Shown: positions 2,954-63,913 of the stretch, in pieces
Layout of the letters: each line of letters begins with the position of its first letter
Position numbering within the stretch: position 1 is the first letter of the stretch
Origin: Apostichopus japonicus
Lineage: Eukaryota > Echinodermata > Holothuroidea > Aspidochirotida > Stichopodidae
Assembly: GCF_037975245.1 (NCBI RefSeq)
Contig: NC_092577.1
Location: forward strand, 22,284,398 to 22,348,397
Direction: 5' to 3'
Length of the DNA: 64,000 nt
Translations under genes and position numbers: made by a program
Notes under the pieces: model-generated
What the model was told of the DNA's origin: nothing
Databases searched by the model: none
What the model saw: only the letters and a program-made list of their open reading frames with translations

Positions 2954-3255
2954 GTCATTATGTAAGGCTTTCACTTGTTATGCTTTTGTTGTCAGTGCTT
3001 TCAAAATTACAACTAACATGAGTTTATATGATGAAACAAGACTGCTTTAGCCTGCAAACGTCACTTTGCTACTGGACAGTCATCTGCTTAAGTCAGTTTT
3101 GAACAGAACTCGTAAAAATAGGTGTCCTTAAAGTAAGGATTACCGAGAATTTCATGCATTTTGTAAAGTTGTCAGAGGGAATAAGAATATGGTCATATCA
3201 TAGAGATAGAGGATGGTCTGACATACATGGCATAGGGCCTTGCTAGACTTGCTTT

Positions 3256-3625
3256 CAGGTCTATAGAGACGTCAGGTCCATAGAGACGTCAGGTCCATAG
3301 AGACGTCAGGTCCATAGAGACGTCAGGTCCATAGAGACGTCAGGTCCATAGAGACGTCAGGTCCATAGAGACGTCAGGTCCATAGAGACGTCAGGTCCAT
3401 AGAGACGTCAGGTCCATAGAGACGTCAGGTCCATAGAGACGTCAGGTCCATAGAGACGTCAGGTCCATAGAGACGTCAGGTCCATAGAGACGTCAGGTCC
3501 ATAGAGACGTCAGGTCCATAGAGACGTCCGGTCCATAGAGACGTCCGGAACATAGAGACGTCCGGAACATAGAGACGTCCGGAACATAGAGACGTCCGGA
3601 ACATAGAGACGTCCGGAACATAGAG
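3256..3625. repeat. 17-bp minisatellite, about 22 units
   Basis: The unit GGTCCATAGAGACGTCA is repeated head to tail without interruption. The first unit carries a C-to-T change. The last six or so units shift to a second sequence class with CCGGAACATAGAGACGT. Every unit holds the palindrome GACGTC, one base short of the CRE octamer TGACGTCA. The 17-bp period gives apparent open frames on the minus strand; these are artefacts of the repeat. Confidence 0.95.
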
Positions 3626-4290: not shown

Positions 4291-4462
4291 TTGTGCTTTT
4301 TACGTGACCCGCCATGCGGGATATAAAACGTCACGGCCAAACCGAACCATCCCATTCTGAAAAACGAAACTCGGGTCAAGCGAGCCACTAAAACATACGC
4401 CCGCCGACCTGCAGAGACAAAACGCCCAACCCCCCACTGACATTCAAAAAACCACAAATCAC
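4291..4462 (-). mobile_element. family A LINE, 5'-truncated 3' end
   Basis: On the minus strand this is the last roughly 170 bp of the LINE found at 40.5-45.4 kb. It has the same 3'UTR words (TCAGTGGGGG, CTCTGCAGGTCGG, GAATGGGATGGTT, GGCCGTGACGTTTT). It then carries the true 3' terminus that the long copy lacks: a small hairpin CCCGCATGGCGGG followed by TCACGTAAAAAGCACAA. This copy therefore defines the family's 3' end. Severe 5' truncation is the usual outcome of target-primed reverse transcription. Confidence 0.85.
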
Positions 4463-5001
4463 GTCATAGGTCACTGTAGATCACGTGATCATCATATCGC
4501 TTTTCGCGAAAAGCCGAATTTTTTGTTTGAAAAATGAACGAGTTAAAGAATTTCAGCCTTTCAGAATTTCAGCCTTGAATTTTCACATGTGTAAAACGGA
4601 AACCAACTAGAATACTGTTGAATAAAATCGTATTTTTTCGTCAATGCTCAAAATCGCTATCGTTCATCCTTAAAGATATAGTAAAATGACACTTGATATA
4701 TTCACAATATCACTCGATAAAAGTTGCTTACCCCAAGTAATACACTAATTCATTGAAAAAAACAACTTCACACCAATAAAACAAGCATTTTTTGCCAAAT
4801 TTAGACCAATGTTTACGATGACCTACTTTCTCCCGAAGTTGCGCTCCAATGTAGGTCAAGCTTTTGTTCGCTCTCATGACGTAGAAAGGTGAACGATTCA
4901 GACGACTGGCAAAATATCTTTATACTGTAGTATATAACCTACACACATCTTCACATGACACATTATACATAAGTTTGTAAATATCACCAAATCAAGTCGG
5001 A

Positions 5002-18126: not shown

Positions 18127-19340
18127 TGATGACAAAAGTTGGTTCTAATGTTGGTTGACCACTGTGGTTTTCACAAATTTTTACAAACGGTCATCTAGGA
18201 CATCTTAGGCCCTTTTATGGAAAACTACAAAATGTTTCTTGTCCTTCAGTTAATAGCAATGATTATGAAGGTTGGTCAAAATGTTGACTGACAAATGTTC
18301 ATTTGGTTTGTTTTCACACATTTTGGATCTAAGGTCATCTATGGCCCATTTAGGACCCTTTTATGGAAACCTACAAGGTGTTCTTGTCCTACTGTTGACA
18401 ATGCATCATTATGTCAGTTTGTGATAGTGTTTGCCAACCAATGCGTCATATCATGTGTTTATGCATGTTGGGTCTCTGGTCATCTAGGACCAATTTTGGG
18501 CCATTTTATTAAAACTATCAAATGTTGCTAGTTGCACAGTTAATAATGCATTATTATACCAGTGGGTCCTGTGGGGTGTTTATAAATTTAGGGTCCAAGG
18601 TTATCTGGAGGTCAATTCAGGCCATCTTACCTACAAAATGCTTGTTCATACAGTTAATAAATTATTATTCTAAAAGTTGACCATAATGTTGGTTGACCAG
18701 TGCAACCTATAGGGTATTCACAGATCTTTGGTCCAAGGTAATCTAGGGCCCCAAATGGGCCTTTTATGATGAACTGGAAAATGTTTCTTGTCCTACAGTT
18801 AATCACAAATGATTATGAAAGTTAGTTTTGGGTATATGATCCGAGGTCATCTAGGGTCCCGTAGTGTCCCCTTTATAGAAATCTACAAATTTCTTCTTGT
18901 CCTGTAGTTAATATAGATGGATAGTGCAGAAATTTGATGTTTGTCAACTAGTAGGTCATATGAGTTTTTGCAAGAATTACATCCAAGGACATGAAGGGTC
19001 CATTTTTAACCTTTTAGGGAATGTGCATGCTAATTGTTCTATAGTTAATAATGTAAAAATATGAAAGTTGATCATGCTGTTTTGCCACATTAATTCTTGG
19101 ATGATCAGCCATGTATTGATGGTAAAACATTGAAGGTCAAAGGCCCTTTTAGAGCCTTTATATGAAGAACAGCAAAAACTTTCTTGTTCTACAGTTGATA
19201 GTAGATTATGAGTGGTGGTCACATTTCTTAATTAGTGAGTCATCTCGCCCGGTATTCACAGATTTTATATCCAATGTTGTCTAGGGTCCATTCTTGACCT
19301 TTTTATTGCATATCTGTACAATATTTCAACCAATTATAAG
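18127..19340. repeat. degenerate tandem array, unit roughly 110-150 bp
   Basis: About nine diverged units share the order GGTCATCTAGGGCC, GGCCTTTTATGGAAA, CTACAAAATGTTTCTTGTCC, ACAGTTAATAATG, ATGAAAGTTGGTCA, GACCAGTGGGTCAT. Unit length drifts through small indels, so it reads as an old satellite-like expansion. Open frames within it are not genes. Confidence 0.6.
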
Positions 19341-20812: not shown

Positions 20813-21677
20813 TGAGGGGGGCATGAATATTAATGAGTGGTAGAGCTTAAAGCAAATTCTTTAAAATATCAATTTGTTCATCAAACTTGAGCTGATAGCA
20901 AGGAACAACATTTGTGTTGATGCTACATTAATATTCATAAAAGTTTGGAACCAAGTGTACACAATGAACCAACAGTAATATTTAGATGCCAAGGAATCTC
21001 AAAACCTATTGGTTTTCTTGTTTTAAATCTTCCTTTTTTCCAAACCCCTAACGTACAGTGGGGGTTTCCTGTGGCTACTTGGTTTCTCTGTCATGAAACT
21101 GGTTTACTGTAAACCGTTACCGCTAGGCTTTATACGCTAGCCTACAGCTTTTCAAGTTCCCTATACAAAAATTATGCATTGTAACTGTAAGGCTAGGATG
21201 ATAAACAGTCATGGGTCACATTCAGAACGGTAACGTTAGTAAGTAATGTTTCTACGCAATGTCAGCAAATTTATATCAATAATCATGATCGTATTATTTT
21301 CGTAACATTATGTGCAAATATCACCAATGGGTTTTGCTATACATTGGTTGCAGTCTAGGCTGGCCTACTTTCTAGTGCATAGGATGTATAGCATAGCCAC
21401 ACATATTTAATTTTCGAGGAGAATAAGGACAGCCTATGCTGTTCATAACAAAATGTCAGCAATTTTTTGTACTAAACACAGCAATTTGTGTCCCCAATAG
21501 TTTTTTCTTGAGTCTGATAGGCCCTACCCTATGCATGGTAATATAATCAATTGAACCCACTCACTGGTGAATCTTGTGAAGATTTCAAATAAATCTGAAA
21601 TATAAAAATTGAAATAGAGTACTATAATGCCATAGGCTAGTATACTTATCTCAACTAATTTTATCATTCTTATCTAG
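20813..21677. other. intron 3' part of the P2X7-like gene
   Basis: It contains a short remnant of the TG-leader dispersed repeat near 20820 (ATATTAATGAGTGG) and otherwise unremarkable AT-rich sequence. It ends at the acceptor TTCTTATCTAG. Confidence 0.4.
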
Positions 21678-22086
21678 GTGCACCTATCAAAACTCTCAGA
21701 TCATGCCATCTGGGAGGGAATGTGACTGTTGTTCAGAGGTTCCACAGGTCCTGGAAAAACGAGACGATGCAAGGACACTGTATCACCAAGCCCAACCCTA
21801 CCGGTACATTACAGAACATCCAGGATTTCAATCCGTTTGTCTTGATGTTCATGTTCTCCAAACTGCTTGGTCTCAGTACAAGCAGCAGTACGATGAACCG
21901 TATGAGGGCCCTCAACATAAAGTGTTTCGGCACATCTCTCACCGGCAGTTTGCAACATGGATATGGGGTTTCCTTGGTCGTCACCTGAGAATCGTTCTAC
22001 CATCCTGTGCTGTTTCAGCGATTCGTGCTACCTTTCCGCCACCGGGAGATGAAGATGACCATGTTTATGTAGGATTCCTAGCATAG
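21678..22086 (+). CDS. P2X7 intracellular-domain-like protein, final exon
   Basis: It begins after TTATCTAG and encodes about 136 residues to TAG. The Cys-rich start (MPSGRECDCCSEV), ITEHPGFQSVCLDVHVLQTA, HRQFATWIWGFLG and the signature ILPSC-like core VLPSCAVSAIRATFPPP followed by YVGF match the cytosolic C-terminal domain of vertebrate P2X7. In P2X7 that domain contains a zinc cluster and a guanine-nucleotide site. In many invertebrate genomes it occurs as a stand-alone protein, often from recently duplicated genes. The phase fits the exon at 5002-5231. The exon is open and has the expected length, so the gene may be live. A U2-headed SINE sits 25 bp after the stop, in the likely 3'UTR. Confidence 0.8.
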
Positions 22087-22126
22087 GATACAGTATGCAT
22101 AGGCTTCATCCATTCCTGCCATTGAT

Positions 22127-22339
22127 ACTTTTTAAAAATGGCCCAAGAAAGAACCTGGGCACGAAACTGAAACGAACGGCGGCAGCTGTCACAGCAACAT
22201 TGTCAACTGACTAACCTCTCGGCCCCAGTCCCCCTACATCATGACCAGTGGACTGTGATCATCAGGTGAGAGTGTAGCAATGTAATTTCCTTTACATCAG
22301 AAACTATGTACAAATACTACACATAATCTTAGGCAGAAG
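22127..22339 (-). mobile_element. U2-snRNA-headed SINE, copy 1
   Basis: It is flanked by perfect 16-bp target duplications CATTCCTGCCATTGAT (22111-22126 and 22340-22355). Read on the minus strand it starts GCTTCT, lacks about 10 nt of the U2 5' stem, then continues TAAGATTATGTGTAGTATTTGT as in U2 snRNA. The body has CACCTGATGATCACAGTCC and GGGGGACTGGGG. It ends with TTTCGTGCCCAGGTTCTTTC closing a GCCCAGG/CTTGGGC hairpin, then CATTTTTAAAAAGT with no long poly(A). The same order is seen in the copy at 48646-48837. This is a dispersed retroposon rather than a U2 gene: U2 sequence past about nt 45 is absent. It lies in the presumed 3'UTR of the P2X7-like gene. Confidence 0.85.
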
Positions 22340-22355
22340 CATTCCTGCCATTGAT

Positions 22356-28424: not shown

Positions 28425-28589
28425 GGGGATTTCAGTGCTCCTTCGTGATGGGAAAGACAAGGTTATGCCCACTCAAGAGATATACGGTGCCCAGACTAGA
28501 GCTATGTGCTGCTGTGTGGGCAGCGATGCTAGGACAGTTGCCATACAGTACAGGATCCATAACCTCAGCAACAGTGGAAGCAACCCAGC
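28425..28589 (+). mobile_element. BEL/Pao LTR retroelement fossil, upstream piece (RT/RNase H border)
   Basis: The stretch encodes the BEL/Pao-type segment around PRLELCAAV that lies between the reverse transcriptase and RNase H parts of the polyprotein. It is cut by the family B LINE insertion at 28590, and the rest of the same fossil resumes at 30467. The element is broken and old. Nothing upstream of about 28425 was recognised. Confidence 0.7.
28579..28589. other. target-site duplication, left (AGCAACCCAGC)
   Basis: An 11-bp direct repeat identical to 30456-30466. It brackets the family B element exactly and marks its insertion into the BEL/Pao fossil. Confidence 0.85.
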
Positions 28590-30455
28590 TTTGTAGTTTG
28601 CTTTCGTGGAGTGCGGACGTGTTTTCGGCTGCTCTCCACTTTTCGTTGACCACACACTTTGTGTTTTTTACGTTGGCCTTTCAATAGTTTGTTTAGTGTA
28701 GTTTTGGCTTTGTTGCGTGGTTTTTGTTTTTCGTAGGTGCGTGGATTGCCACACCCCTAGCTGTCATGGCGGCTCGCCGTGAGAGCAAAATCGTATTGTT
28801 GAGTTTTTCGGGGAGGCTTAGGTCTTCCCCGGACAATTTTGTTCAGTTTTGCGTTCTGTTGGTTTAAAGGTCCCTGGAGAGGTTGACGCGCTTAAGTGTA
28901 AACCTCTCCGGGGTGTAAATGTTTTTGATGTTCGGTTCACCTCGGAGGCTGCCCGCGTCGGAGGTGTCCATGTGTTGGAGGGAGTTGAGGGACTGAAGGT
29001 CACACCGTACGACAGTTCGGTGTGGGTGACAGTCCTCCATCTCCCTCTGGACATGTCTGAACAGGTTGTTTTGCGGACACTGGGGCGTTTTGGGAAAGTG
29101 ACCGGCTACGAGGAGCCGGAATTCCTTGAATGTAAAGGTGTCAAGACCGGGACTAGACGAGTTAGAATTGAACTCAAGTCCGATATCCCCTCTACCTTGT
29201 GGGCTAATGGGCACAGGGCCCACATTGCATATCCGGGCCAGCCTCGCACTTGTTGGAGATGTGGGCTGGAAGGGCATGAGGCCAGGTTGTGGCCGAAAAA
29301 GCGGTGTGGCCGCTGTTTACAGGTTGGTCATACCCTGGCCGAGTGTACAGGGGATATCGTGTGTAACTCGTGTGGGAAAACGGTCCATCTGGCCCGTTTA
29401 TGCCCAGACAGCTCATATGCCGCGAGAGTGGCTACGGGCGTGCTTGAAGCGGTCCCTGTCCCGGCCTCTGACACCGTACCACCTGATGCTCCTGTTATCG
29501 CCCCAGTGTCCGACACTAGCGCCCGGTGGAGGCTTTGTTCCCCCTTTCGTGTCTGACCTCTCCCCTGATCGAACTTGCCGAGACTGCCAGCCTGCCCACT
29601 GAGGCAGAGCAGGATAAAACGGCGGAGATGGTACTAGCGGAGTGGCATGCGGCGCAGGATGCAACTTGTACTGGTTCACCGGTAGCTACGCCCGCTATCG
29701 GTGATACTAGTTGGGCCCGAGTCTACCGGCCCAAGAGACATTTAGTGGCCCAGATTCTGACTCGCCAATGGAGGACTGCACTACAGCCTTATTAGTTGTG
29801 GCTAAGGAGTCCTCCGATTGGTTTGATGAGACGAAACAGGCCACTGATCTCATTGACTCGAGTGGCCCTTCCACCCTACCCGCAGCCGCTTCCGCTATAC
29901 CGGACACGATAGTCGCTAGTGGACCTCCTGTTCCTGACAGGGAGGTCCACTCGATCAAGGTTGACGAGGAGCTAAGAACTCTGCTCGCTCGTAAGAAAAG
30001 GGGGAACACTGCTAGGGGCCTGAAAAGACCCATATTGGGAAAACTTCGGAGGTAATGCGCAGGCCTGTTGTTTACTATCGGGACGGCGTACCCCGGATGA
30101 AGTTTTGGAGTGGGTTAGTTGTTAGGTGTGGGGGGGGGAGGGGTTGTGTGGTCGTTACATAATATGGGTTGTAGGGTTCTGTTTGTGGTTTGGAGTTGGC
30201 TTTTTGGGGCTGGTTTGAAGAGCTTTATTGTTTTGGTTCTGTTGGCCTTTGGGTCCGTGTTCTTTTCACGTCACGTTGAACGCTACATTGTATACGTTTC
30301 TGGGTCTGTGAGAGATTTCTGTGAGAGATTTCTGTGAGAGATTTCTGTTTGTGGGTTTTCAGTTGGGTTTATGGTGGTTGTTAAACAGACTGGGATTGTT
30401 TTGGGGTTTTGTTGACCTTTGGTCCGTGTCCGTTTTCTTTGCACGTAAAAAGCAC
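28590..30455 (+). mobile_element. family B half-LINE (ORF1 only), copy 1, with target duplications
   Basis: A 1.87-kb unit running from the LINE 5' leader (TTTCGTGGAGTGCGGACGTG, 28602 onward) through an ORF1 to a G/T-rich 3'UTR ending GCACGTAAAAAGCACA. It has no endonuclease or reverse transcriptase. The 11-bp duplications abut both ends, so the ORF2-less form moved as a unit and is not a deletion made after insertion. The first roughly 30 nt match family A, as do the last 14 nt. A second copy at 60547-62389 has the same architecture. The 3'UTR here carries a triplicated GAGAGATTTCTGT repeat that is single in the other copy. Confidence 0.85.
28766..30055 (+). pseudogene. family B ORF1, frameshifted
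   Basis: ATG at 28766 (MAARRESKIVLLSFSG) matches the open 430-codon ORF1 at 60726-62018 closely, but this copy has about three frameshifts (near 28810, 29520 and 29720). The central part is open: VTVLHLPLDMSEQVVLRTLG, then the first knuckle CWRCGLEGHEARLW with its last Cys changed to Trp, then CGRCLQVGHTLAEC and CNSCGKTVHLARLC, where the Gly before His is Val. It is a dead ORF1 protein gene. Confidence 0.8.
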
Positions 30456-30466
30456 AGCAACCCAGC
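30456..30466. other. target-site duplication, right (AGCAACCCAGC)
   Basis: Second copy of the 11-bp duplication at 28579-28589. The BEL/Pao fossil resumes immediately after it. Confidence 0.85.
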
Positions 30467-41840: not shown

Positions 41841-44800
41841 ATGGCCCATACACTTTCAGTTGCCACTTTGAACGTGAATGGCATGAGGGATCATCGCAAG
41901 CGCAGTCGCATTTTCCAATATTGTAAATCAATGGGGGTCGACTGCGTTTGCCTGCAAGAAACACATATTTTGGAAGAAGATGTCCCTCTATGGGCTTATG
42001 AGTGGGGTGGTGAGCTGCATGCTTCGTTTGGTTCGTCTTCATCCTGTGGCACTGTCATCCTTCTGTCAGCTCGTCAGGCGGGTTGTGCCACTAGGGTGGA
42101 GACGGATCACGAGGGCCGATTGGTTTGCATTCTATTCAAGTATCCACAGGGTAACATCGCCATTTGCAATGTGTATGCTCCCAATCGGCCTTCTGCTAGA
42201 CGAGATTTTTTTAACACGCTGCCTTCCTTTGTTCCTGGTAGTGCGCCGTGTGTCATGGTCGGAGACTTTAACTGTGTCCCAGACTCGGGTCTTGACAGAC
42301 TCGGAACTTCTGTGTCTGCAAGTCCCGACGCTGGGATCACAGAATTGGACAGATTCACTTCGGCACACCTTTTAGCCGATGTCTGGAGGCATATGCACCC
42401 GTGCAGTACGGTGTATACGTGGGTGAGGCCTAACGGAGAAGATGCCTCCAGGATAGATCGAGTGTATGCGCCCGTAAGTTTTACATTTTCGGGTTGCGAG
42501 ACGCTCAGCTGTCCGCTCTCTGACCATGACACTTTAGTAGCACGTTTTGTTTTGCCTTCCATTTTCCCCATCGGGCGGGGCCTATGGAAGCCTTAACTGT
42601 CGGATTCTTGGCGAGGCAGAGTTCCGCCAGGGTTTCGAGACCAGGTACAAAGGATGGCAAACATTGAAGCCGGCCTTTGTTTCTACATCCCAATGGTGGG
42701 ATGAGGTCAAGTTGCGCATCAAACGCTACGCAATTCAGTATTGCGTGACCCGCGCACGGCGTCGAAGAGAAAAATTCTCCAAGCTGTGCGCGGAGGTGAA
42801 GTTTGGCGACCCTTCGGCAGTCATCGCTTTGCAGACTTATCTCGATGAAAAGTACCACGGTGCCCGCGTCAGGGCCCGTGTCGAAGCGGTGGAAGCCGAG
42901 GAGCGCCCTTGACTGAGGTTTTACCAGTCCGTTAGCTCATCGGCAGGTGACAGACGCGTCCCGTCTGTACGCGCTACTGATGGGACCGTGGTTAGTGACC
43001 CTCACGGCATTGTCCGCGTATATAAAGAGTACTATTCGAGTTTGTTTACGCGTGGCAATGTCGACTTGTCGGCACAGGCTGATTTATTGAGGGGAATCTC
43101 AAAAACCGTTCCCCACGATGTCAATGATATTTTGGGGGGCGAAATAACCACTGTTGAGCTTTGGAAGGCGCTTTCGAAGATGAAGAATGGCAAGTCCCCG
43201 GGTTCGGACGGGCTTCCGAGGGAGTTCTACCGAACCTTCTGGGCAATAATAGGACCCGACATCAGAGCCGTCTTCGAGGACGCCTTCCAAAACGGACTGT
43301 TAAACCAAAGTCAACGTCTGGGCATGATTACTTTGCTGCCCAAGTCTGGGGACCCCTTGGATCCCCGTAACAAGCGTCCGATCACCTTGTTAAATGTGGA
43401 CTACAAGTTGCTGGCTAAGGCTTTGTGCAACCGCCTTGCACTGGCTATGCCGCATCTTGTGGGTGATCTCCAGACTTGTGCAGTCAAGGGTGATTGCATC
43501 CAGCAGAACTTGTGGTTGATGCGCGACTTGACCGACTTTGTTATTGAGCGTGATTTGCCATGTGCATTGGTGTCTCTGGACCAGCAGAAGGCCTTTGACA
43601 TGGTGGATCGCGGTTTTTTAATGAATGTATTGGAGACGTTTCAGTTGCACCCAAATTTTCGTAAATGGATTTCTGTTTTGTATCAGGAAAGTTTCAGTTC
43701 TGTTATCGTAAATGGGTTTTGTTCGGAGGTTTTTAACGTAGAGAGGGGGGTGCGCCAGGGGTGCCCTCTGTCTCCATTACTTTATGTTTTGTTTACCGAG
43801 TCCCTCTCTCGTCTTTTGGAAAGGGACTCCAGACTTGTTCCATTCGTTGTGCCAGGGGGTGCCAAAGTGAAATGCGCTCAATATGCAGATGACGTGACAT
43901 GTGTTGTTTCGAGTCTGGGCTCCTTTCGCGCACTCTCGCAGGATTTATCTATTTTCGAGAGAGCTACCGGGGCGAAGTTGAATCCAGAAAAGACAAAGGG
44001 CCTTCGTCTTGGTAGCTGGAGATACAGAGACTTACCATTCGGTGCGTCGTGGTCGGATCAGAATATCAAAATTAATGGTATATGGTTCGGCTACGATGCA
44101 CCTGGTGATGTCACCTGGAGCGAGAGGGCTGAGGTATTTGAGAGCAGGCTCGAAACCTTTGGCACCCGCTGGCTTTCGATCCTAGGGAAAGTCACCGTAG
44201 TTAATCGTTTTGTTTCGCCCATCTTGTGGTACCCGGGCGCGGTGTATCCAATTCCGCGTCGCGTCCTAGTGCGGTTGGAGAGAGCGATATTTTCATTTAT
44301 TTGGTCGGGTGGTACAGAGCTTGTGAAAAGGGCGGTAATGTACCAAAAACTGGAGAAGGGTGGGTTAGGGGTTGTTCATCTGGGAAGTAAGTTAACTTGT
44401 TTGTTATTTAAGCAGTTGTTTGTAGCGGTAACTGACCCAGGGTTGCCTTGTTCATATTTTGTACGTTTTTGGGGCGGTTTGCACCTGCGTCGATGGGTCC
44501 CGGCGCTGTTTAGCAACAGAGAACCGCATAGTAGTACTCCAAACAGGGTGGTGCGTGTCTTTTGCTCCGCTCTGATTGAGTTGCCCCCTGTTGACCTGTC
44601 ACAGCCGGCCCTCGTTCACAGTTCGTTGCGGGATAGGGCCTTGAATGCAATTTTTGTACAGGGACGTCATCCTGTCGAAGTATGGCGTTCGGTGCATTCA
44701 AGGCTGAATGGTTGCAGGCTCCGTGACCTTGCATGGAGAATTGCACACGGTGCCTTGGTGACCAATCTGAAAAGGTATCACTGGCGATTGGGTGATGGAC

Positions 44801-45234
44801 TGTGCCCGAGGACCGGCTGTGACAGCTTAGAGAGTACTGCCCATGTTTTTTGGCATTGCCCCTTTGTTTTGAACTTGTGGGAGTGGTTTCAGTCCTGGAC
44901 CGACCGTTTAACGGGAGACCGTTCCTGGTCGGTAGGACAGGGTTTTGTCTTGTATGGATTAGATCCTCCAGTTTGTTCCGTTGCTGTGTTGCAGCGTATT
45001 ATTTATGTTTGTTCTGTTGTAAAAAAACTTATTTGGAGGAATAGATGTGATGTTGTTTTTAGGGGGAAATTTGCCAGTTGGCAGGCAGTCCTGGAGGCGG
45101 TGAAGTCTGACATTCGCCTTCAGGTTGAAGGCGATTTTCGCCGTTTATCTAGGGCTGCCTTTTTTGGACGGTGGTGTGCTGGGGAAGGGTGTTTTGTTTC
45201 GCTGCGTGCTGGTCGTCCTTTTGTAGTTTTTTAA
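41841..45234 (+). pseudogene. LINE family A ORF2: endonuclease, reverse transcriptase
   Basis: ATG at 41841 opens MAHTLSVATLNVNGMRD. The endonuclease has LQETHIL, NVYAPN, VGDFNC and SDHD. A deletion near 42583 shifts the frame; the sequence continues as LNCRILGEAEFRQGF. An in-frame TGA is at 42910-42912. From there 770 codons are open: GKSPGSDGLPREFY, RPITLLNVDYKLLAK, the catalytic QQKAFDMVD, GVRQGCPLSPLLY and AQYADDV, then a thumb region. A C-terminal zinc-like segment ESTAHVFWHCPF and WRNRCDVVFRGKFASW follow. All RT catalytic residues are present. The enzyme nicks target DNA and primes cDNA there. Two lesions stop it from being made whole. Confidence 0.9.
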
Positions 45235-45730: not shown

Positions 45731-47588
45731 CTTGAATGAAAATGTGTGGTCGTCCTTTACCGGCTTTGTCACTGTGTGTGGAGCTACAATTACCACTTTG
45801 TTGGCTTTTCAAGCTCTGGCTACTACCGGAAAATGGAGAACGACGGGACATTCTTCCAAGTAGTTTTCTGCCATCCATGGCAGAACTTTTCTGTCACAAC
45901 TTACTTCTTCAGAAGCGGAGCGTGTACTTTGTTTCTTGATTTGCTTAGCTTTCCTCCTTTTTTACTTTCTCCTTCTGTATTCCTCTCAAGGCCAACAGTT
46001 AGTTCTACAAGAAAAACAAGCAATAAATGAACAGTGGGTAAAGATCATAATCTGTGACTTAACTTTTAGTTTCAAAGTTTTCTTTTGTATGGGCCCAATT
46101 CAATTAGGTTGGTAGGGGCGGGGTTGTAATGATTTGCCTGAAGATTTTTGTGGTACTCAACTGTTCCAACTGTGTAGTTCTGAACTGTGCCATGTGAAAA
46201 ATAAAAGTCAATATGGTGTCTCATTAATGAATGGGTTCTATTTGACCCTACCAGAGATAACAATACATTGCCCATGTTTTCATTGAAATATCCCCCCGCC
46301 CCTTTGCAATCCACCTGTCCTGCTGCAGCTATGGTCACAAGATACAATCCTTTTTCAAAAGTCGAGAATGGAGAGGCAGGGTGTGTGACGTCATGCATTA
46401 ATTCAAAGGGATTTGAGCCCAAAATTTACAGTGGTAGTCACAAGCCTCCTCCTCCTGTAAATTGATCATTTAGCTCATTTGTTAAAAACTTGTTGGTGGC
46501 TGTTTACTCTTGAGAATTGTGCCCCTTGCCATAAAGCAACAGATCTTGGTATTTTATTATTAAACAGAACAATTAATTTATCTGCAATGTGGCAGGCAGT
46601 ACCACCAGAATATACAGTAGGGACTTCAGAACAACTACTAATTATCGTTAGGTAAAAAATATGTCAGCCCAACTTAAACTCTTATGATAAGCAAAGTGCT
46701 TTTCCTGTAGGTCTATACAAACGGTCTTACAAGCCATAAAGACTAAAAACTGATCTGGCACATGGAACTAGGCTTAGCCTAGTCAGAGCCTACAGTTTAC
46801 TAGGATGGATGCACTAATTTTGGGCATGCATCAAAATGGCATTGGCCCTATATATGCCAGATATTCAAATATGGTCACCTTTGGTCAATTTACCTCTGCT
46901 CTAGATATCAGTCACATTGATTGTTCATTGATAATGACTGAGAACAATTGGAAAGTACCAAATTTTAAGTGAATATTGATTTTAATTAGGCTCCACCTTG
47001 GCTAGGTCACGGCTAGTAAGACCCGGCCTAGCCTCGTAAGTTTAGATAAGTTATTTTTTGGTTTAACTTGTAATAAACCAATAATATAATAGTAGAAAAG
47101 AAAGCATCAGGAGGGACAGTCAAATACACACCAATGACCCTATGGCAGAGAAAAAACCTGAAGGCACACCAGATCAGAACCGATTATAATGCTTAAAGTA
47201 CTTGTCCAAACATTCTTTAACTCATTCACACTACTTGTAGTTCTAGACTAAGCTCGTACTGTAGTTCTTGCAATACAACTACAAGTAGGCCTCGGCTAGT
47301 GTACTCAGTAGTATTACTATTAGGCTAGGCCTATGCTATACTACACACAAAATACTGTGATGCGCATGGCTAAAAATTTCGCGGATGCAAAAAAATAAAC
47401 AAAGGCATAGACCCTAGCCTATATCTACGCTTCCTTAGCATTTAAATCGTTTAGGCCTAACATTTTAGTTAATCTTAACTAACGTTTCGACTATGCTTCG
47501 CCTAGTATTAGTATGTTTGTCAAACCTGACACAAAACAAGGATTGGAGTGATGTGAATGTGATACAGGGCAAGCCTAGGCTAGATCAC
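45731..47588. other. non-coding, nothing firmly recognised
   Basis: A dispersed-repeat-like stretch (46080-46440, with a GGGGCGGGG core and TTAATGAATGGGT) is followed by TAGGCC-rich sequence from 46780. No supported gene. Confidence 0.4.
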
Positions 47589-47669
47589 GGCACTCGTAAC
47601 GTTATGTAGGTGTATAGTATATAAACTCCGTGTTTATATACTATACACTTACATAACGTTACAAGTGCC
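47589..47669. repeat. 38-bp-arm palindrome with 5-nt loop
   Basis: The left arm (47589-47626) and right arm (47632-47669) are reverse complements with two mismatches. The inner 18 bp (GTGTATAGTATATAAAC) are perfect. The loop is TCCGT. Arms contain GTAACGTTATGTA, itself nearly symmetric. Such a compact palindrome can extrude as a cruciform and tends to be unstable, so it is probably young. Confidence 0.9.
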
Positions 47670-48538
47670 TGTGGGCTAGATAGCGTAGCCTAGTTCAAAC
47701 TACTTTTAGGCTACATAGCGTAGTACTCACCTCTTCAATGAAAGTCTCTTCTGTATCATTCTACTTGATGAAAGGGCCGAGACATAAATAAGGGGATTTT
47801 CTTCCAATTTGAACTTGATAGCGACCAAATCGTTAGAGCAAGACAAAGTGTTTACAACGCTGTAGTGCATCAGATTCACGATCGCCGGGTTTCGCTCGTC
47901 GCGCCGGAAGTGAAATACGCGGGTTTTTCTTCTAGGGAGGGTGCACGCTGAGAGATCGGCACAATTTGAACGTTCAGATCAGAATTAAACTTCTAAAACT
48001 GACCTGTTTTGATGAATACTGCATCAAATTGGTTAATTCAACCACTAAATAGGGTATAAATGATCCACCTAAGACTTTTAAAATATTAAAACAATCATCA
48101 AACGTAAAAATTATGTTTCATTTGCGTGCATGGCTAAGGTGAATCACGCTACTTGAGAGGGAAATAGTTACGTAATATACAAGCTAACTTTCCAAAGTAA
48201 TAACCTTGAATGGTGCAGAGACGGCCAGTGTCCATCAGTGAACGTCCGTGCTACTAAAGGGCGGATTCTCACATGTGTGGGGTCATATCTAGTCATGACC
48301 AAATATTATTTGTCTTGATACTAAATTAGGGCCTACTATCATTATGTACAGTAGTAGAGCATGCCCTGACAAGCTGGGCAGCATTTAAGATTTCATGTGT
48401 AGAAATAGTTCAATATCTTGGTTTTAAGAACATGAAATATAGGGATAAAAATCCTGGTTGAACACGATTTCGATCAAAAGAAAGAGAACAGGAAAAATTG
48501 ATTGCACCAACCAGCAAGCCCCAACCATTCATACCACT
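47670..48538. other. non-coding, nothing recognised
   Basis: No gene-like frame. Precedes, in minus-strand terms follows, the stop codon of the hAT-derived gene. Confidence 0.4.
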
Positions 48539-49612
48539 TCACTGATATATCATGTTGGGCAGTCTAAGCTGTCTCTTGTATAGTTTGGCAAACATGTCAA
48601 TAATAACCTCATTCTTTATTGGGAAGTCATGCTGGATGTGAATATACTTTATAAGAAAATGTCGCCCAGGAAAGAACCTGGGCACGAAAACCAAACTACT
48701 GAACGACTGATCCGCTTCTAACCCCAGTCTCCTTGCATCGGGACTGTGACTTGAGTGATCATCGTCAGGTGTGCATCACCATTTCCCTCGAAAGGGAACA
48801 GATACTACACATGATCTTAGCCAAAAGGCCGAGAAGCGATGTGAATATGAGCAAGACTTGACAGCCGTTCATCGGTCATTGAAGCTCTTGTATAAATGTT
48901 CAGCCTACGTAATCTACGTTCACATTCACACGAAGTTACTGGTGGCATACAACTGATGGACTGTTTCGATGTGGATGGTACATCTGCTGGCTCTAGACCA
49001 GGAAACTTGGCCTTCCACATACTAACTTCCATATCTAGGAGCTCTGACGAATGTAGGTCATTTGAGTTTGCCTCCTCAATTATGCGGGTGCTTGATGGTG
49101 GTGAAGAATAATCTAGTAGAACCGTTGGTACCAGTCCCATCGCTTCTGTACTTTTCACTGCAAGATCTAAACTAGATTGAAAACATTTGTTATTATTATT
49201 TTGTGATGACACTGAATTCCTATTGATGAATTCTTATTTCTTAATATTATCGGATCTCTTATTTTTTGTTAGTGTAACATACTATCTGATGAACTGCGAA
49301 CTAGGCTAAAAGTGAAACATAATTTATAATCACTTGATTATTCACTATGAATTATTGTAGCCTACTGTACCTGAAAAGCGAGTTTTCAATGATGTGCTCT
49401 ACAAATGGTATGGCCAAATTTACACGATAGTAGGGCATTGGATCACTAGCTGCTGCATTACTACGGTGTACTTGACGTGTCGTAATTCTTGGCATTGATG
49501 GTAAGGTATCCACTGATTCAGCCATGGTGACTGCTTTGTTGAAGATCGTGTTGTATTCAGCCTCCATGTTGTTTCTCATCTCTTTATACATGGCAATAAT
49601 ACCATTTTTCAT
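48539..49612 (-). pseudogene. hAT transposase C-terminal half, interrupted by a SINE
   Basis: Exon 49612-49371 carries SMPRITTRQVHRSN and YYRVNLAIPFVEHIIENSLF. The donor TTTTCAG|GTACAG leaves phase 2, and the exon from 49171 (after TTTTCAATCTAG) completes the codon, giving a 199-bp intron. The second exon has the hAT dimerisation motif MPPVTSCECERRLRRLNIYTR and MTDERLSSLAHIH. Here a U2-headed SINE plus one duplicated target (203 bp) is inserted. Past it the same frame resumes (DFPIKNEVIIDMFAKLYKR) to TGA at 48541-48539. Apart from the SINE the second exon is fully open, so the insertion is recent relative to the gene's age. Catalytic N-terminal parts were not found upstream. Whether it was a transposon or a domesticated hAT gene is open. 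Confidence 0.8.
48646..48837 (-). mobile_element. U2-snRNA-headed SINE, copy 2
   Basis: Flanked by 11-bp target duplications GATGTGAATAT (48635-48645 and 48838-48848; up to 3 bp of overlap with the head). On the minus strand the first 45 nt equal the 5' end of U2 snRNA with one mismatch. They include the 5' stem-loop (CTTCTCGGCCTTTTGGCTAAG) and the branch-site-pairing GTAGTA. U2 identity stops there. The body reads CACACCTGACGATGATCAC, CACAGTCCCGATG and GAGACTGGGG. It ends in a perfect GCCCAGG-N6-CCTGGGC hairpin and GACATTTTCTTATAAAGT. The Sm site and the U2 3' stems are absent, so it is not a U2 gene. Confidence 0.9.
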
Positions 49613-58530: not shown

Positions 58531-61500
58531 ATGCCTCAGTGCCAGGCTTTTGGATGTAGTAATGTGCATGGATGCGTGAACGAAAAGGGAGACTTTCGTT
58601 TTTTAGTATTCCTAACCCCAACAAGAGTAATGAAAACTGAACTGTGTAGGAGGTGGATTCATGCGATCGGAACAGACAAATTCGATCACAAGAAATATGA
58701 GTACCATCGTGATCGCGTAGTTTGCGAAAAGCATTTTACATCGGAATGTTATATGGATGACATGCAGGCCCGGTTAATGGGGACCAACCCCCCCCCCCCC
58801 AAAAAAAAATAAGCCAGGATCGGTTCCAACATTATTTACTTTTTTACCAAACTTCGGGTGAGAATTACCATCTCAATCAGAACTACGGATCCAGTCAAAA
58901 GAAATACAAGAGGTAGGTATATGGTTGGCTATGGCGATCAAACCCAAATCGTAGCCGTGTCCATACATGGCCTACACTTGGCTTTGTAAATTTGCAATTC
59001 CTACTTTAAGTACGTAACCTTACTGTAGCTTGGCTTATTTAGGTTAAATTATGTAGGCCTACATCATGTCTCTTTTTTGTGTTTTTATTGTAATAAAATT
59101 GGGTAGCATTTTAGGCTGTTTTCATTGATTCATTATCAATAACAAATGAAATTTTGCAACGTCTAAACTTCATTTTGCCATTTGAGGTCTACGGTAGACC
59201 ACACTGTCAGACTGCATTGCTTTCTTGACAAAATTCACCAAGGGCTGCAGCAGTACCTAGGACATTCACAACTGCAACACTCTGGACATTCAACTAACAT
59301 AACAATAACATTGGATAGGCCTAGCATAAGTAGTCCTTATTTTGGCTTCAAATTTAATTTATCTGTTTGTTACAATTGTAGCCTATGGTTCTTGTTGAGG
59401 AAGTGTTGATAGATAGATATGAGGCTGATAGGATGAGGAGCTCAATGCTGCTGCAAATTTCACAGACTTCTGAGTCTGAAATGATGTTCCACTGGCAGAC
59501 CTGTGGGCTGTACATTGTGGGAAAAATTATACATTTTAGGTTTGTCAACAACTGCGATTTTTCTTGGTGCTGTGGACTTGTTCAGGTCGATAATCCAAAA
59601 ACAATTCTTCAGTTGTTACAGTCATAACACCGTTAACATGTGTAAGGAATGAATGCTCAATATTTCCTGTTCACAGAAAATTACCACTCTGTATAAATAA
59701 GTAACAGTGTTTAAATTCAATGGCCAATTAGGCATCCTGGTTACAGGAAAATTTAAATACAAATTCTCAATGTCATTGCGAAACCAATGCTTTTGTATGC
59801 ATATAGTCCTTACAGTATTTTTCTCATATTACCATACATCTCTAAGCTACAGGAATATCCCCATACTGTACAGAATAAATGACAATGTTTTCACTATTTC
59901 AAAGGCATCATTAATGATCGCGCAACATTTTCTTCTTCATCCTTTCCAGTTCTTGAAGTCCCTCAGCCCAGCCAAAAAACCAAAGAAAGGTACAAAGGTC
60001 AAATCAGCTCCACTTGATTCAGCTGAGATTCCAGAAGCAGAAATTGTTGTTGGTGCTACACAATGGGTAACTGCCATTTTATTTTGTGCTTTTTACGTGA
60101 CCCGCCATGCGGGCTACAAAACGTCACGGCCAAACGGCATTACCGAACCAAACGCAACTCAGGTCTAGCGAGCCAAATAAACATACGCCCACCGACCTGC
60201 AGAGACAAAACGCCCACCCCACTCAAACGTTCAAAAACCTACAAATGGACAACCCGCACGCAGCGAAACGAAAAACCCTCCCCAGCACACCAGCGTCCAA
60301 AAAAGGCAGCCCCAGATAAACGGCGAAAATCGCCTTCAATTTGAAGGCGAATGTCAGACTTAACCGCCTCCAGGACTGCCTGCCAACTGGCAAATTTCCC
60401 CCTAAAAACCAAATTACATCTATTCCGCCAAACATGTTTTTTTACAACAGAGCAAACAAAAATGATGCGGTGCAACACAGCTACCGAACAAACTGGAGGG
60501 TCTACCCCATATAGCCCTGCCCCACCCAACTTAGTTCAGTTCAGTTCTCGTGGAGTGCGGACGTGTTTTCGGCTGCTCTCCACCTTTCGTTGACCACACC
60601 TTTATCGTGTTTTTACGTTGGCCCTTCATTAGTTTACAGTTTGTTTTAGTGTAGTTTCTGTATTTTGGGTTTGTTTCGTTTTGGTTTGTGTATAGGTGCG
60701 TGGCTTTGCCACACCCCTAGCTGTCATGGCGGTTCGCCGTGACAGCAAAATCGTATTGTTGAGTTTTTCGGGGGAGGCTAAGGTCGTCCCCGTACAAGTT
60801 TTTTCAGTTTTGCGTTCTGTTGGTTTAAAGGTCCCTGGAGAGGTTGACGCGCTTCAGCGTAAACCTCTCCGGGGTATGAATTGTTTTGATGTACGGTTTA
60901 CCTCGGAGGCTGCCCGCGTCCGAGGCGTCCATGTGTTGGAGGGAGTTGAGGGATTGAAGGTCACACCGTATGGCAGTTCGGTGTGGGTGACAGTCCTCCA
61001 TCTCCCTCTGGACATGTCTGAACAGGTTGTTGTGCGGACACTGGGGCGTTTTGGGAAAGTGACCGGCTACGAGGAGCCGGAATTCCTTGAATGTAAAGGT
61101 GTCAAGACCGGGACTAGACGAGTTAGAATCGAACTCAAGTCCGATATCCCCTCTACCTTGTGGGCTAATGGGCACAGGGCCCACATTGCATACCCGGGCC
61201 AGCCTCGCACTTGTTGGAGGTGTGGGCTGGAAGGGCATGAGGCCAGGTTGTGCCCGAACAAGCGGTGTAGCCGCTGTTTACAGGTTGGGCATACCCTGGC
61301 CGAGTGTAAAGGGGATATCGTTTGCAACTCGTGTGGGAAAACGGGCCATCTCGCCCGTTTATGCCCAGACCGCTCATACGCCGCGAGAGTGGCTACGGGC
61401 GTGGTTGCAGCGGTCCCTGTCCCGGCCTCTGACACCGTACCACATGATGATCCTGTCATCGCCCCAGTGTCCGACACTAGCGCCCCGATGGAGGCTTTGT

Positions 61501-63913
61501 TCCCCCTTTCGTGTCCGACCTCTCCCCTGATCGAACTTGCCGAGACTGCCAGCCTGCCCACTGAGGCAGAGCAGGACAAAACGGCGGAGATGGTACTAGC
61601 GGAGTGGCACGCGGCGCAGGATGCCGCTTGTACTGGTTCACCGGTAGCTGCGCCCGCTATCGGTGATACTAGTCGGGCCCCGAGTCAACCGGCCCAAGAG
61701 ACATTAAGTGGCCCAGATTCTGACTCGCCAATGGAGGACTGCACTACAGCCTTATTAGTTGTGGCTAAGGAGTCCTCCGATTGGTTTGATGAGACAAAAC
61801 AGGCCACTGATCTCATTGACTCGAGTGGCCCTTCCAACCTACCCGCAGCCGCTTCCGCTATACCGGACACGATGGTCGCTAGTGGACCTCCTGTTCCTGA
61901 CAGAAAGGTCCACTCGATCAAGGTTGACGAGGAGTTAAGAACTCTGCTCCCTCGTAAGAAAAGGGGGAATACTGTTAGGGGCTTGAAAAGACCCGTATTG
62001 GGAAAATTTCGCAGGTAATGCGCAAGCCTGTTGTCTGCTATCGGGACGGCGTACCCCGGATGAATTTTGGAGTTAGTTAGTTGTTATGTGTGGGGTGGGG
62101 GGTTTGTGTGGTCCTTACATAATATGTGTTGGGGGTTTTCTGTTTGTGGTTTGGTGTTGGCTTTTGGGGGCTGGTTTGTGGAGCTTTATTGTTTTGGTTC
62201 TGTTGCCCTTCTGGTCCGTGTCCTTTTCGCGTCACGTTGAACGCTATATTTTATACATTTGTGGGTTAGTGAGAGATTTCTGTTTGTGGGTTTTCAGTTG
62301 GGTTTTTGGTGGTTGTTAAACAGACTGGGATTGTTTTTGGTTTTGTTGACCTTTGGTCCGTGTCCGTTTCTTTGCACGTAAAAAGCACACTGCACTACAG
62401 CCTTATTAGTTGTGGCTAAGGAGTCCTCCGATTGGTTTGATGAGACAAAACAGGCCACTGATCTCATTGACTCGAGTGGCCCTTCCACCCTACCCGCAGC
62501 CGCTTCCGCTATACCGGACACGATGGTCGCTAGTGGACCTCCTGTTCCTGACAGGAAGGTCCACTCGATCAAGGTTGACGAGGAGTTAAGAACTCTGCTC
62601 CCTCGTAAGAAAAGGGGGAATACTGTTAGGGGCTTGAAAAGACCCGTATTGGGAAAATTTCGCAGGTAATGCGCAAGCCTGTCGTCTGCTATCGGGACGG
62701 CGTACCCCGGGTGAATTTTGGAGTTAGTTGTTATGTGTGGGGTGGGGGGTTTGTGTGGTCCTTACATAATATGTGTTGGGGGTTTTCTGTTTGTGGTTTG
62801 GTGTTGGCTTTTTGGGGCTGGTTTGTGGAGCTTTATTGTTTTGGTTCTGTTGGCTTTCTGGTCCGTGTCTTTTTCGCGTCGCGTTGAACGCTGTATTTTA
62901 TGCGTTTGTGGGTTGGTGAGAGGTTTCTGTTTGTGGGTTTTCAGTTGGGTTTTTGGTGGTTGTTAAACAGACTGGGATTGTTTTTGGTTTTGTTGACCTT
63001 TGGTCCGTGTCCGTTTCTTTGCACGTAAAAAGCACACACAGTCATCAATGCATACAACAACATATGAATATGACATCACTTTCATGGAAGACAATTACAT
63101 GCTGCTCTTTGATGATTTCAGATTCCCATGGGTGATGTACATGATGAACTTCCAGTCACAGAAACAGAAGGCAGTGGCATTACATCTCCTCCTGTGTCAC
63201 CTCTTGTGGTGGGTATTAAATAAATCAATCAACAATCAAAACCAACTCAGTTTTAAATCAATTGTTCTGCCACCAGCCCACATTACAGCAAATTTCTATT
63301 CTTGGACTTAGTATATAGTAAAATTGTCAATTGTTACGTGTTGTGGAAACATTTCTCCAATGGTTAACAACTTAATGTAAATGTATCTCTTCAGTATTTG
63401 TGTCCTACTGTCTTTCTATAGGGGTGTATTGACATATTCATTCATCTATTCAATCTAGAACATTGACATTGTTAATGTGAAAACCATTTGTGCTCAGATT
63501 AATCTATTGTGAATTTTTTCTTCTCATTTTTTGAAGAAAATTATTCAATATGTAACTTAAGTGCTTTGATAACATTGTTGCAAAGCCTGACTACAAATGT
63601 GACCAATTCTACACCAAAATATGCAACATTGTATCACTGAAACATCAATTTTTTGGGCTTTTGATTTGATCAGGATACACAAAAATTCCTTTCCTTCACA
63701 TATTTGGTTATTTATGTTAGAAAATTTATATCATTATATTCCTGTCACAAGTGTTCATTTTTGTTTGGTATCAATTGCCCATATTTTGTAGATTCAGAGA
63801 CAGATATTGGGTACTTCAAAGTACCTTGTCCAGTTGATGCCAGAAAATTTTCATCCCCCATATCTCCACTACATTCAACAGCAAGGCCCGCTAGTATTAC
63901 CACCACACCAAGT
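58531..63913 (+). CDS. THAP-domain gene with downstream exons, partial
   Basis: Exon 1 (58531-58912) starts MPQCQAFGCSN (C-x4-C), then GDFRFLVFL, CRRWIHAIG, and VVCEKHFTSECY (C-x2-H). Then a polyC/polyA run shifts the frame into KPGSVPTLFTFLP, the AVPTIF-type end of the THAP domain. A second frame change precedes the donor AAGAG|GTAGGTAT. Three further exons with good borders join in phase 0: 59950-60066 (SLSPAKKPKKGTKVKSA, basic), 63122-63208 (IPMGDVHDELPV, TSPPVSPLV) and 63792-63913 (QILGTSKYLVQLMPENF). A possible extra exon begins at 59382. The intron 60067-63121 is filled by LINE insertions. The product would be a zinc-dependent DNA-binding protein. The homopolymer shift may be a sequencing error, so it is not certain the gene is broken. 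Linkage of exon 1 to the later exons is inferred. Confidence 0.5.
60084..60527 (-). mobile_element. family A LINE, 5'-truncated (ORF2 C-terminus and 3'UTR)
   Basis: The minus strand encodes the last roughly 90 residues of ORF2 (DPPVCSVAVLHRIIFVCSVV, FRGKFASWQAVLEAVKSDI) and the complete 3' end with the CCCGCATGGCGGG hairpin and ACGTAAAAAGCACA. The 5' end is cut at about 60527, and 20 bp later a family B element starts in the opposite direction. Confidence 0.85.
60547..62389 (+). mobile_element. family B half-LINE (ORF1 only), copy 2
   Basis: Same layout as copy 1: 5' leader CGTGGAGTGCGGACGTG, ORF1, G/T-rich 3'UTR and GCACGTAAAAAGCACA at 62389, with no ORF2. It lies head to head with the family A fragment and head to tail with copy 3. 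No target duplication could be assigned within the compound. Confidence 0.85.
60726..62018 (+). CDS. family B ORF1, intact 430-codon zinc-knuckle protein
   Basis: ATG in CTAGCTGTCATGG opens MAVRRDSKIVLLSFSG; the same start is found in copy 1. The N-terminal half (VPGEVDALQ, CFDVRFTSEAARV, SSVWVTVLHLPLDMSEQ, RTLGRFGKVTGYEEPE) parallels family A ORF1. All three CCHC knuckles are complete: CWRCGLEGHEARLC, CSRCLQVGHTLAEC and CNSCGKTGHLARLC. A roughly 200-residue acidic Ser/Thr/Pro tail ends in a basic patch (RKKRGN, KRPVLGKFRR). It is longer than family A ORF1 (363) because of this tail. The frame is fully open, which suggests recent activity and selection for the ORF1 protein despite the absence of ORF2. 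Confidence 0.85.
   Translation: MAVRRDSKIVLLSFSGEAKVVPVQVFSVLRSVGLKVPGEVDALQRKPLRGMNCFDVRFTSEAARVRGVHVLEGVEGLKVTPYGSSVWVTVLHLPLDMSEQVVVRTLGRFGKVTGYEEPEFLECKGVKTGTRRVRIELKSDIPSTLWANGHRAHIAYPGQPRTCWRCGLEGHEARLCPNKRCSRCLQVGHTLAECKGDIVCNSCGKTGHLARLCPDRSYAARVATGVVAAVPVPASDTVPHDDPVIAPVSDTSAPMEALFPLSCPTSPLIELAETASLPTEAEQDKTAEMVLAEWHAAQDAACTGSPVAAPAIGDTSRAPSQPAQETLSGPDSDSPMEDCTTALLVVAKESSDWFDETKQATDLIDSSGPSNLPAAASAIPDTMVASGPPVPDRKVHSIKVDEELRTLLPRKKRGNTVRGLKRPVLGKFRR
62390..63036 (+). mobile_element. family B half-LINE, copy 3, 5'-truncated tandem
   Basis: It begins directly after the 3' end of copy 2 with CTGCACTACAGCCTTATTAG, within the last 90 codons of ORF1, and runs to GCACGTAAAAAGCACA at 63036. 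It is nearly identical to copy 2 over its length. Either it inserted exactly at the copy 2 terminus or the pair was made as a dimer by template jumping. Confidence 0.85.
63209..63791. other. intron of the THAP gene
   Basis: Between the phase-matched exons at 63122-63208 and 63792-63913. AT-rich, with no feature. Confidence 0.4.

Follow-up and report, generated by a model that had tools for sequence, protein, structure and literature searches.

Two short minus-strand sequences in the window (the whole 64-kb stretch of DNA analysed here) begin with a piece that resembles the start of U2 snRNA, and the question is whether they are copies of one retroposon that hands its U2 head on to new copies. 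U2 heads have so far been reported for few SINEs. As such a head is not expected to act as a Pol III promoter, each family with one raises the questions of how its RNA is made and how its head was gained. We consider it probable, with some room for doubt, that the element described here is a SINE and that the first ~45 nt of U2 snRNA form its transmissible head. The reading we favour is a U2-headed, SINEU-like SINE whose copies would derive from RNA that Pol II transcribes from a U2-driven source.

Layout of the two copies

The first sequence, copy A, has the following parts and surroundings:

48646..48840, minus strand: copy A, 195 nt; 5' end full length, give or take the 3 nt that it shares with the target duplication
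48796..48840, minus strand: head of copy A, corresponding to U2 nt 1-45 with a single mismatch, A30 to T
48770..48811, minus strand: predicted junction hairpin of copy A, spanning U2 and body, with the branch-site-binding stretch of U2 paired
48684..48795, minus strand: body of copy A, unlike U2 and related to the body of copy B
48664..48683, minus strand: 3' hairpin of copy A, GCCCAGG-N6-CCTGGGC
48646..48663, minus strand: 3' end of copy A, ...TATAAAGT
48838..48848, minus strand: 5' target duplication flanking copy A, ATATTCACATC, 11 bp
48635..48645, minus strand: target duplication of copy A, 3' side, ATATTCACATC, an exact match to the 5' side
48817..49233, minus strand: ORF interrupted by copy A, with a hAT-like C-terminus under the Pfam cut-off

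When the window was compared by blastn with a U2 sequence as the query, the head of copy A was identical to U2 at 44/45 positions (48840-48796, E 7e-17). It also matches the Rfam U2 model at 53.2 bits (gathering score 46), in agreement with the preliminary description, which had equated this head with the first 45 nt of U2 save for one mismatch. That description had the right locus, but the end it gave, 48837, omits the ATC at 48838-48840, which matches U2 nt 1-3 and also supplies the final three letters of the copy A duplication. Since these letters are common to the start of U2 and to the duplication, the 5' end of copy A is exact only to within 3 nt.

Copy A interrupts an ORF that starts at 49233. 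Joining the flanks of copy A, as in an empty site, gives ~31 further open codons in frame (roughly 1 in 5 by chance on a hand estimate, and weak evidence alone), and the match of the ORF to a hAT transposase C-terminus is 10.5 bits when interrupted and 14.1 bits when joined (Pfam cut-off 21.4). The case for insertion of copies A and B rests chiefly on their exact target duplications: the perfect 11- and 16-bp repeats reported earlier were recovered as ATATTCACATC and ATCAATGGCAGGAATG, each exact on both sides. The second sequence, copy B, is laid out as follows:

22127..22339, minus strand: copy B, 213 nt; 5' truncated, starting at U2 nt 14
22310..22339, minus strand: head of copy B, derived from U2 nt 14-43; 25/30 identical to U2 and 26/30 to copy A
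22161..22309, minus strand: body of copy B, related to the body of copy A
22141..22160, minus strand: 3' hairpin of copy B, one mismatch relative to the copy A hairpin
22127..22140, minus strand: 3' end of copy B, ...TAAAAAGT
22340..22355, minus strand: 5' target duplication flanking copy B, ATCAATGGCAGGAATG, 16 bp
22111..22126, minus strand: target duplication of copy B, 3' side, ATCAATGGCAGGAATG, an exact match to the 5' side

Taken alone, the head of copy B resembles U2 weakly (25/30, E 0.003 by blastn), and the Rfam U2 model gives no match to it even with E up to 10. It is recognised as U2-derived by its likeness to copy A (26/30) and by its position in the shared unit. Copy B starts within the head, and this is a 5' truncation; copies made by target-primed reverse transcription are often left truncated in this way. 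An ORF on the plus strand that matches a P2X7 intracellular domain (21628-22086) adjoins copy B.

Two copies of one mobile unit

Patterns for the shared head and for the shared hairpin, each allowing up to 3 mismatches, both gave 2 matches in the window where 0.00 were expected (100 shuffles), and the bodies of copies A and B match each other at z 7.1 (0/500 shuffles equal). These scans bear out the earlier view of two minus-strand elements with a common head, body and 3' hairpin. As to the statement that both carry the U2 head and the hairpin, the common unit stands, but the head of copy B is weak by itself and its hairpin differs by one mismatch. U2 beyond nt 43-45 compares with the rest of copies A and B at chance level in 4/4 comparisons, which upholds the description of the body after nt 45 as unrelated to U2; the same four tests led us to reject a longer stretch of U2 homology beyond nt 45, one that in copy B might have taken in stem IIa. 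Head, body, 3' hairpin and a short A-rich end form a single unit.

A MAFFT alignment of the two copies gave 28/32 identical positions in the head, 31/36 in the tail and 62/106 in the body (head vs body p 0.003), whereas aligning part of the body locally gave 69/86 (p 0.43). We do not rely on the head and tail being more conserved than the body, as the difference seen with MAFFT is absent with local alignment. A profile built from both copies finds A and B (E 7e-65 and 1e-54, by construction) and has its next best hit at E 4.4, and the count in the 64-kb window is 2. A candidate third copy near 18496 (blastn with copy B, E 0.013) was rejected: it scored E 3.9 with a model of the tail and was absent with the whole-element model. 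Exact patterns had no match in viral and genome contigs (viral and prokaryote collections), nor did copy A match plasmids and phages by blastn; neither search bears on copy number.

A count of just two copies would also fit a segmental duplication, or a chance likeness with no mobile family behind it. We regard this as very improbable, as the two copies lie in different flanks, their exact duplications differ in length and the common unit is far above chance expectation. The flanks of copies A and B do not align to each other. Several traits of a SINE are seen: both copies are short and non-coding (195 and 213 nt), they occupy separate sites, and they are bounded by target duplications (11 and 16 bp). 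No coding unit of their own was found in either, and both are located outside U2 genes. Copies A and B are retroposed copies of one element, with a U2 head that was probably inherited.

Probable inheritance of the U2 head

Between the heads of copies A and B, 4/30 sites differ, and all four are copy B's own departures from U2; the 16-bp duplication of copy B is intact despite these private changes. Had the changes arisen after insertion, the best joint probability of finding them beside an intact duplication would be 0.012 over the 7 rates tried, on the assumption of equal substitution rates in head and flank. This low value indicates that the source of copy B was probably mutated before insertion. 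Furthermore, both copies have T at position 30, where the Rfam U2 consensus has A, a coincidence of about 1 in 18 by a hand estimate (5/30 copy B positions changed, one of three bases). The shared T could be the host's own U2 base, which would void this particular argument. Together, the mutated head of copy B, its intact duplication and the common T30 suggest that the head is probably inherited and not newly added at each insertion. With n = 2 copies, we hold with fair confidence that new copies receive the U2 head from their source copy.

Alternatively, the two copies could be independent one-off chimeras, each insertion having taken its own piece of cellular U2 RNA. Two copies alone in the window would be compatible with this, and the U6/L1 chimeras described in PMC13174262 are independent events that usually fail to propagate further, whereas the head of copies A and B seems inherited. 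The junction is near-identical in the two copies (nt 43-45), the change of A30 to T is common to both, and in copy B a mutated head sits beside an intact duplication, all of which makes separate chimeras quite unlikely.

Transcription and RNA shape

SINE heads act mainly as internal Pol III promoters (PMC7245038), and an ordinary Pol III SINE would here have its A box in the U2 head (TGGCTAAG at nt 18) and its B box in the body. In copy A, TGGCTAAGATCA does fit 6/8 specified A-box letters. However, the best A-box/B-box pair is at shuffle level in both copies: 188/300 shuffles were as good or better for copy A and 171/300 for copy B, in a simple consensus scan that is a weak test. Four T residues are the minimal terminator for Pol III, and copy A has such TTTT runs at nt 15, 151 and 182. 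The point is weaker for copy B, where the first of these runs reads TTCT and the sole remaining run is TTTTT at nt 202. On these grounds an ordinary Pol III SINE is unlikely.

U2 genes are Pol II genes, so an internal Pol III promoter may not be required of snRNA-headed SINEs. With box pairs at chance level and TTTT runs within the element, Pol II is favoured over Pol III; read from the sequence, the evidence would speak against Pol III transcription of the element, with the terminator objection carrying less weight for copy B. SINEs with tRNA, 7SL or 5S heads have a head-body-tail layout like that of copies A and B; unlike them, copies A and B have no internal Pol III promoter above chance. 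The window has no tRNA gene, and neither copy A nor copy B gave a match to 7SL or 5S.

In both copies a local hairpin is predicted across the head/body junction, where it pairs the branch-site-binding stretch of U2 with the body. It was equalled by 0/1000 shuffles in copy A and 17/1000 in copy B, figures that are flattering since the stretches were picked after viewing the whole folds. Head-to-body pairing alone is modest (51/1000 shuffles as good for copy A, 28/1000 for copy B). The fold of the whole element is at z -2.84 in copy A (1/200 shuffles as good) and at z -1.40 in copy B (16/200), the latter not clearly better than shuffles.

Origin of the head

In the mechanism we propose, a source copy would have come under a U2-type promoter and would yield Pol II RNA starting at U2 nt 1. 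A LINE reverse transcriptase would then recognise the 3' hairpin of this RNA and its TAAAAAGT-like end. The source itself may have arisen when the body entered a U2 gene, either exactly where Keno and Utopia insert (nt 38/39) or close by; alternatively, reverse transcription may have switched template to U2 RNA.

Utopia-group LINEs and Keno sit in U2 genes and are followed by U2 from nt 39 (PMC4640811). The Keno site is given as 37 nt into U2, with a printed 3' target of TCTGTTCTTATC... (PMC6136364), and in the U2 sequence used here this target starts at nt 39. Utopia is described as making no target duplication in arthropods and one of 20 bp in reptiles (PMC4640811). The head of our element stops at nt 43-45, which is 5-7 nt past the cut site of the U2-targeting LINEs. 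The same bottom-strand nick combined with a duplication of 5-7 bp would produce exactly a head of nt 43-45. The end of the head near the Keno/Utopia site thus suggests a lead to an origin in a U2 gene, and it makes one answer to how the head was gained directly testable. In the fullest form of such a promoter capture, a body with a LINE tail would have entered a U2 gene near the site of the U2-targeting LINEs, the Pol II promoter of U2 would drive RNA from nt 1 into the body, and copies would spread; the branch-site stretch, folded with the body, would be kept off introns. Taken as a whole, this chain of steps is doubtful, and no U2 gene carrying a source copy was seen in the window.

With a template switch, the reverse transcriptase of a LINE, while copying the RNA of the body, would have jumped once onto U2 near nt 45 and run to nt 1, and the resulting chimera would have landed near a promoter and become the source. 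L1 reportedly makes U1-U6 chimeras that have the small RNA at their 5' end (PMC13174262). U2 nt 1 would be the natural stop of such a jump, and an L1-group LINE is present in the window. The switch itself, however, leaves the transcription of later copies unexplained, and the anatomy it predicts is identical to that of insertion in a U2 gene, so that these data do not tell one from the other. We rate the switch as a realistic possibility, though short of an even chance.

Relation to known elements

Kojima (2015, doi 10.1093/gbe/evv100) reportedly described SINEU, snRNA-headed SINEs of crocodilians. SINEU elements are presumed to be moved by Tx1-clade LINEs, and the crocodilian families are biased to Mariner targets. 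By their descriptions, SINEU elements and copies A and B are all short non-coding retroposons with a U1 or U2 snRNA head. This U1/U2-derived head is seen directly in copy A, and in copy B through its likeness to A. SINEU counts as an established class of SINEs, with heads taken from snRNA (PMC8010984, PMC5753468), and U1/2 heads are named for SINEs elsewhere (PMC13174262). We place the present sequence in this class as a new U2-headed element with a testable origin. Among the matches listed for the open literature, in the parts available, none was a further U2-headed SINE beyond the SINEU citations; most subscription papers and Repbase lie outside that scope. A U2-headed family outside crocodilians, if true, would mean that such heads arose more than once.

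The L1/U-snRNA chimeras of mammals (PMC13174262) resemble copies A and B in having a 5' U-snRNA piece in sense orientation and target duplications; unlike these chimeras, copies A and B have no poly(A) tail. Keno and Utopia split U2 at nt 38/39 (PMC4640811, PMC6136364), near the point at which the head of copies A and B ends. They are autonomous LINEs within U2 genes, whereas copies A and B are short, contain no coding unit that we could find and lie outside U2 genes.

Candidate partner LINEs

Two LINE families in the window offer candidate partners:

28590..30455, plus strand: LINE family 2 copy, candidate partner type; carries a zinc-knuckle ORF1 and no RT; ends in TAAAAAGCAC
60086..60511, minus strand: 3' part of LINE family 1, candidate partner type; ends GCCCGC-ATG-GCGGG...TAAAAAGCAC
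42913..45234, plus strand: LINE family 1 ORF for a reverse transcriptase (RVT_1), whose best solved relative is LINE-1 ORF2

Family 1 is placed in the L1 group because, among solved structures, its RT is nearest to LINE-1 ORF2 and it has an endonuclease ORF. The sole ORF of family 2 in the window is the ORF1 with zinc knuckles, and its group is inferred from a 33-nt 5' stretch in common with family 1. The clade of the window's LINEs may be Tx1. The family 2 copy at 28590..30455 has an 11-bp target duplication, AGCAACCCAGC, at 28579-28589 and 30456-30466, directly after TAAAAAGCAC; at the 5 other LINE ends or pairings tested, no duplication of at least 7 bp was found. A protein search of viral contigs with the LINE RT gave no match and has no bearing on copy number.

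SINEs and LINEs of the stringent type often have a stem-loop at the 3' end (PMC3747384), and the preliminary description had proposed the SINE hairpin as a tag common to a partner LINE. Within 3 mismatches, that hairpin occurs in the window in copies A and B alone and is therefore carried by none of its LINEs, which for the window goes against the proposal. One family 1 copy does have a GCCC..GGG hairpin before its end, and this differs from the SINE hairpin. The related expectation of a LINE sharing the 3' end fared less uniformly. When the final 60 nt of SINE and LINE were aligned locally in the ordinary way, the scores were at chance in 8/8 comparisons, with 229 to 794 of 1000 shuffles doing as well. 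On the other side stand the ends themselves (TATAAAGT in copy A and TAAAAAGT in copy B, TAAAAAGCAC in the LINEs), the GCCC..GGG hairpin in one family and a 3'-anchored score that, counting the next two bases (AT) as element, beats 283-300 of 300 shuffles and 582-598 of 600 random stretches in 6 comparisons. The likeness of SINE and LINE 3' ends is suggestive, and the LINE is a candidate partner only.

Five LINE 3' ends, two of them within one tandem duplication, have GTAAAAAGCAC in common. Furthermore, a terminal CACGTAAAAAGCAC is common to the two LINE families despite their different 3' UTRs (60086-60511 and 4293-4470 on the minus strand, 28590-30455 on the plus strand, and at 62388 and 63035), as if the 3' terminus had been exchanged or strongly selected. 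The 3' part of a family 2 LINE at 61738-63037 is in tandem duplicate, about 97% identical.

Other repeats in the window

A tandem array at 3255-3625 consists of 21.8 copies of a 17-bp unit (98% matches). Finally, palindromes at 47580-47679 and 2870-2964, which several miRNA families matched far under their gathering scores, are probably foldback elements.
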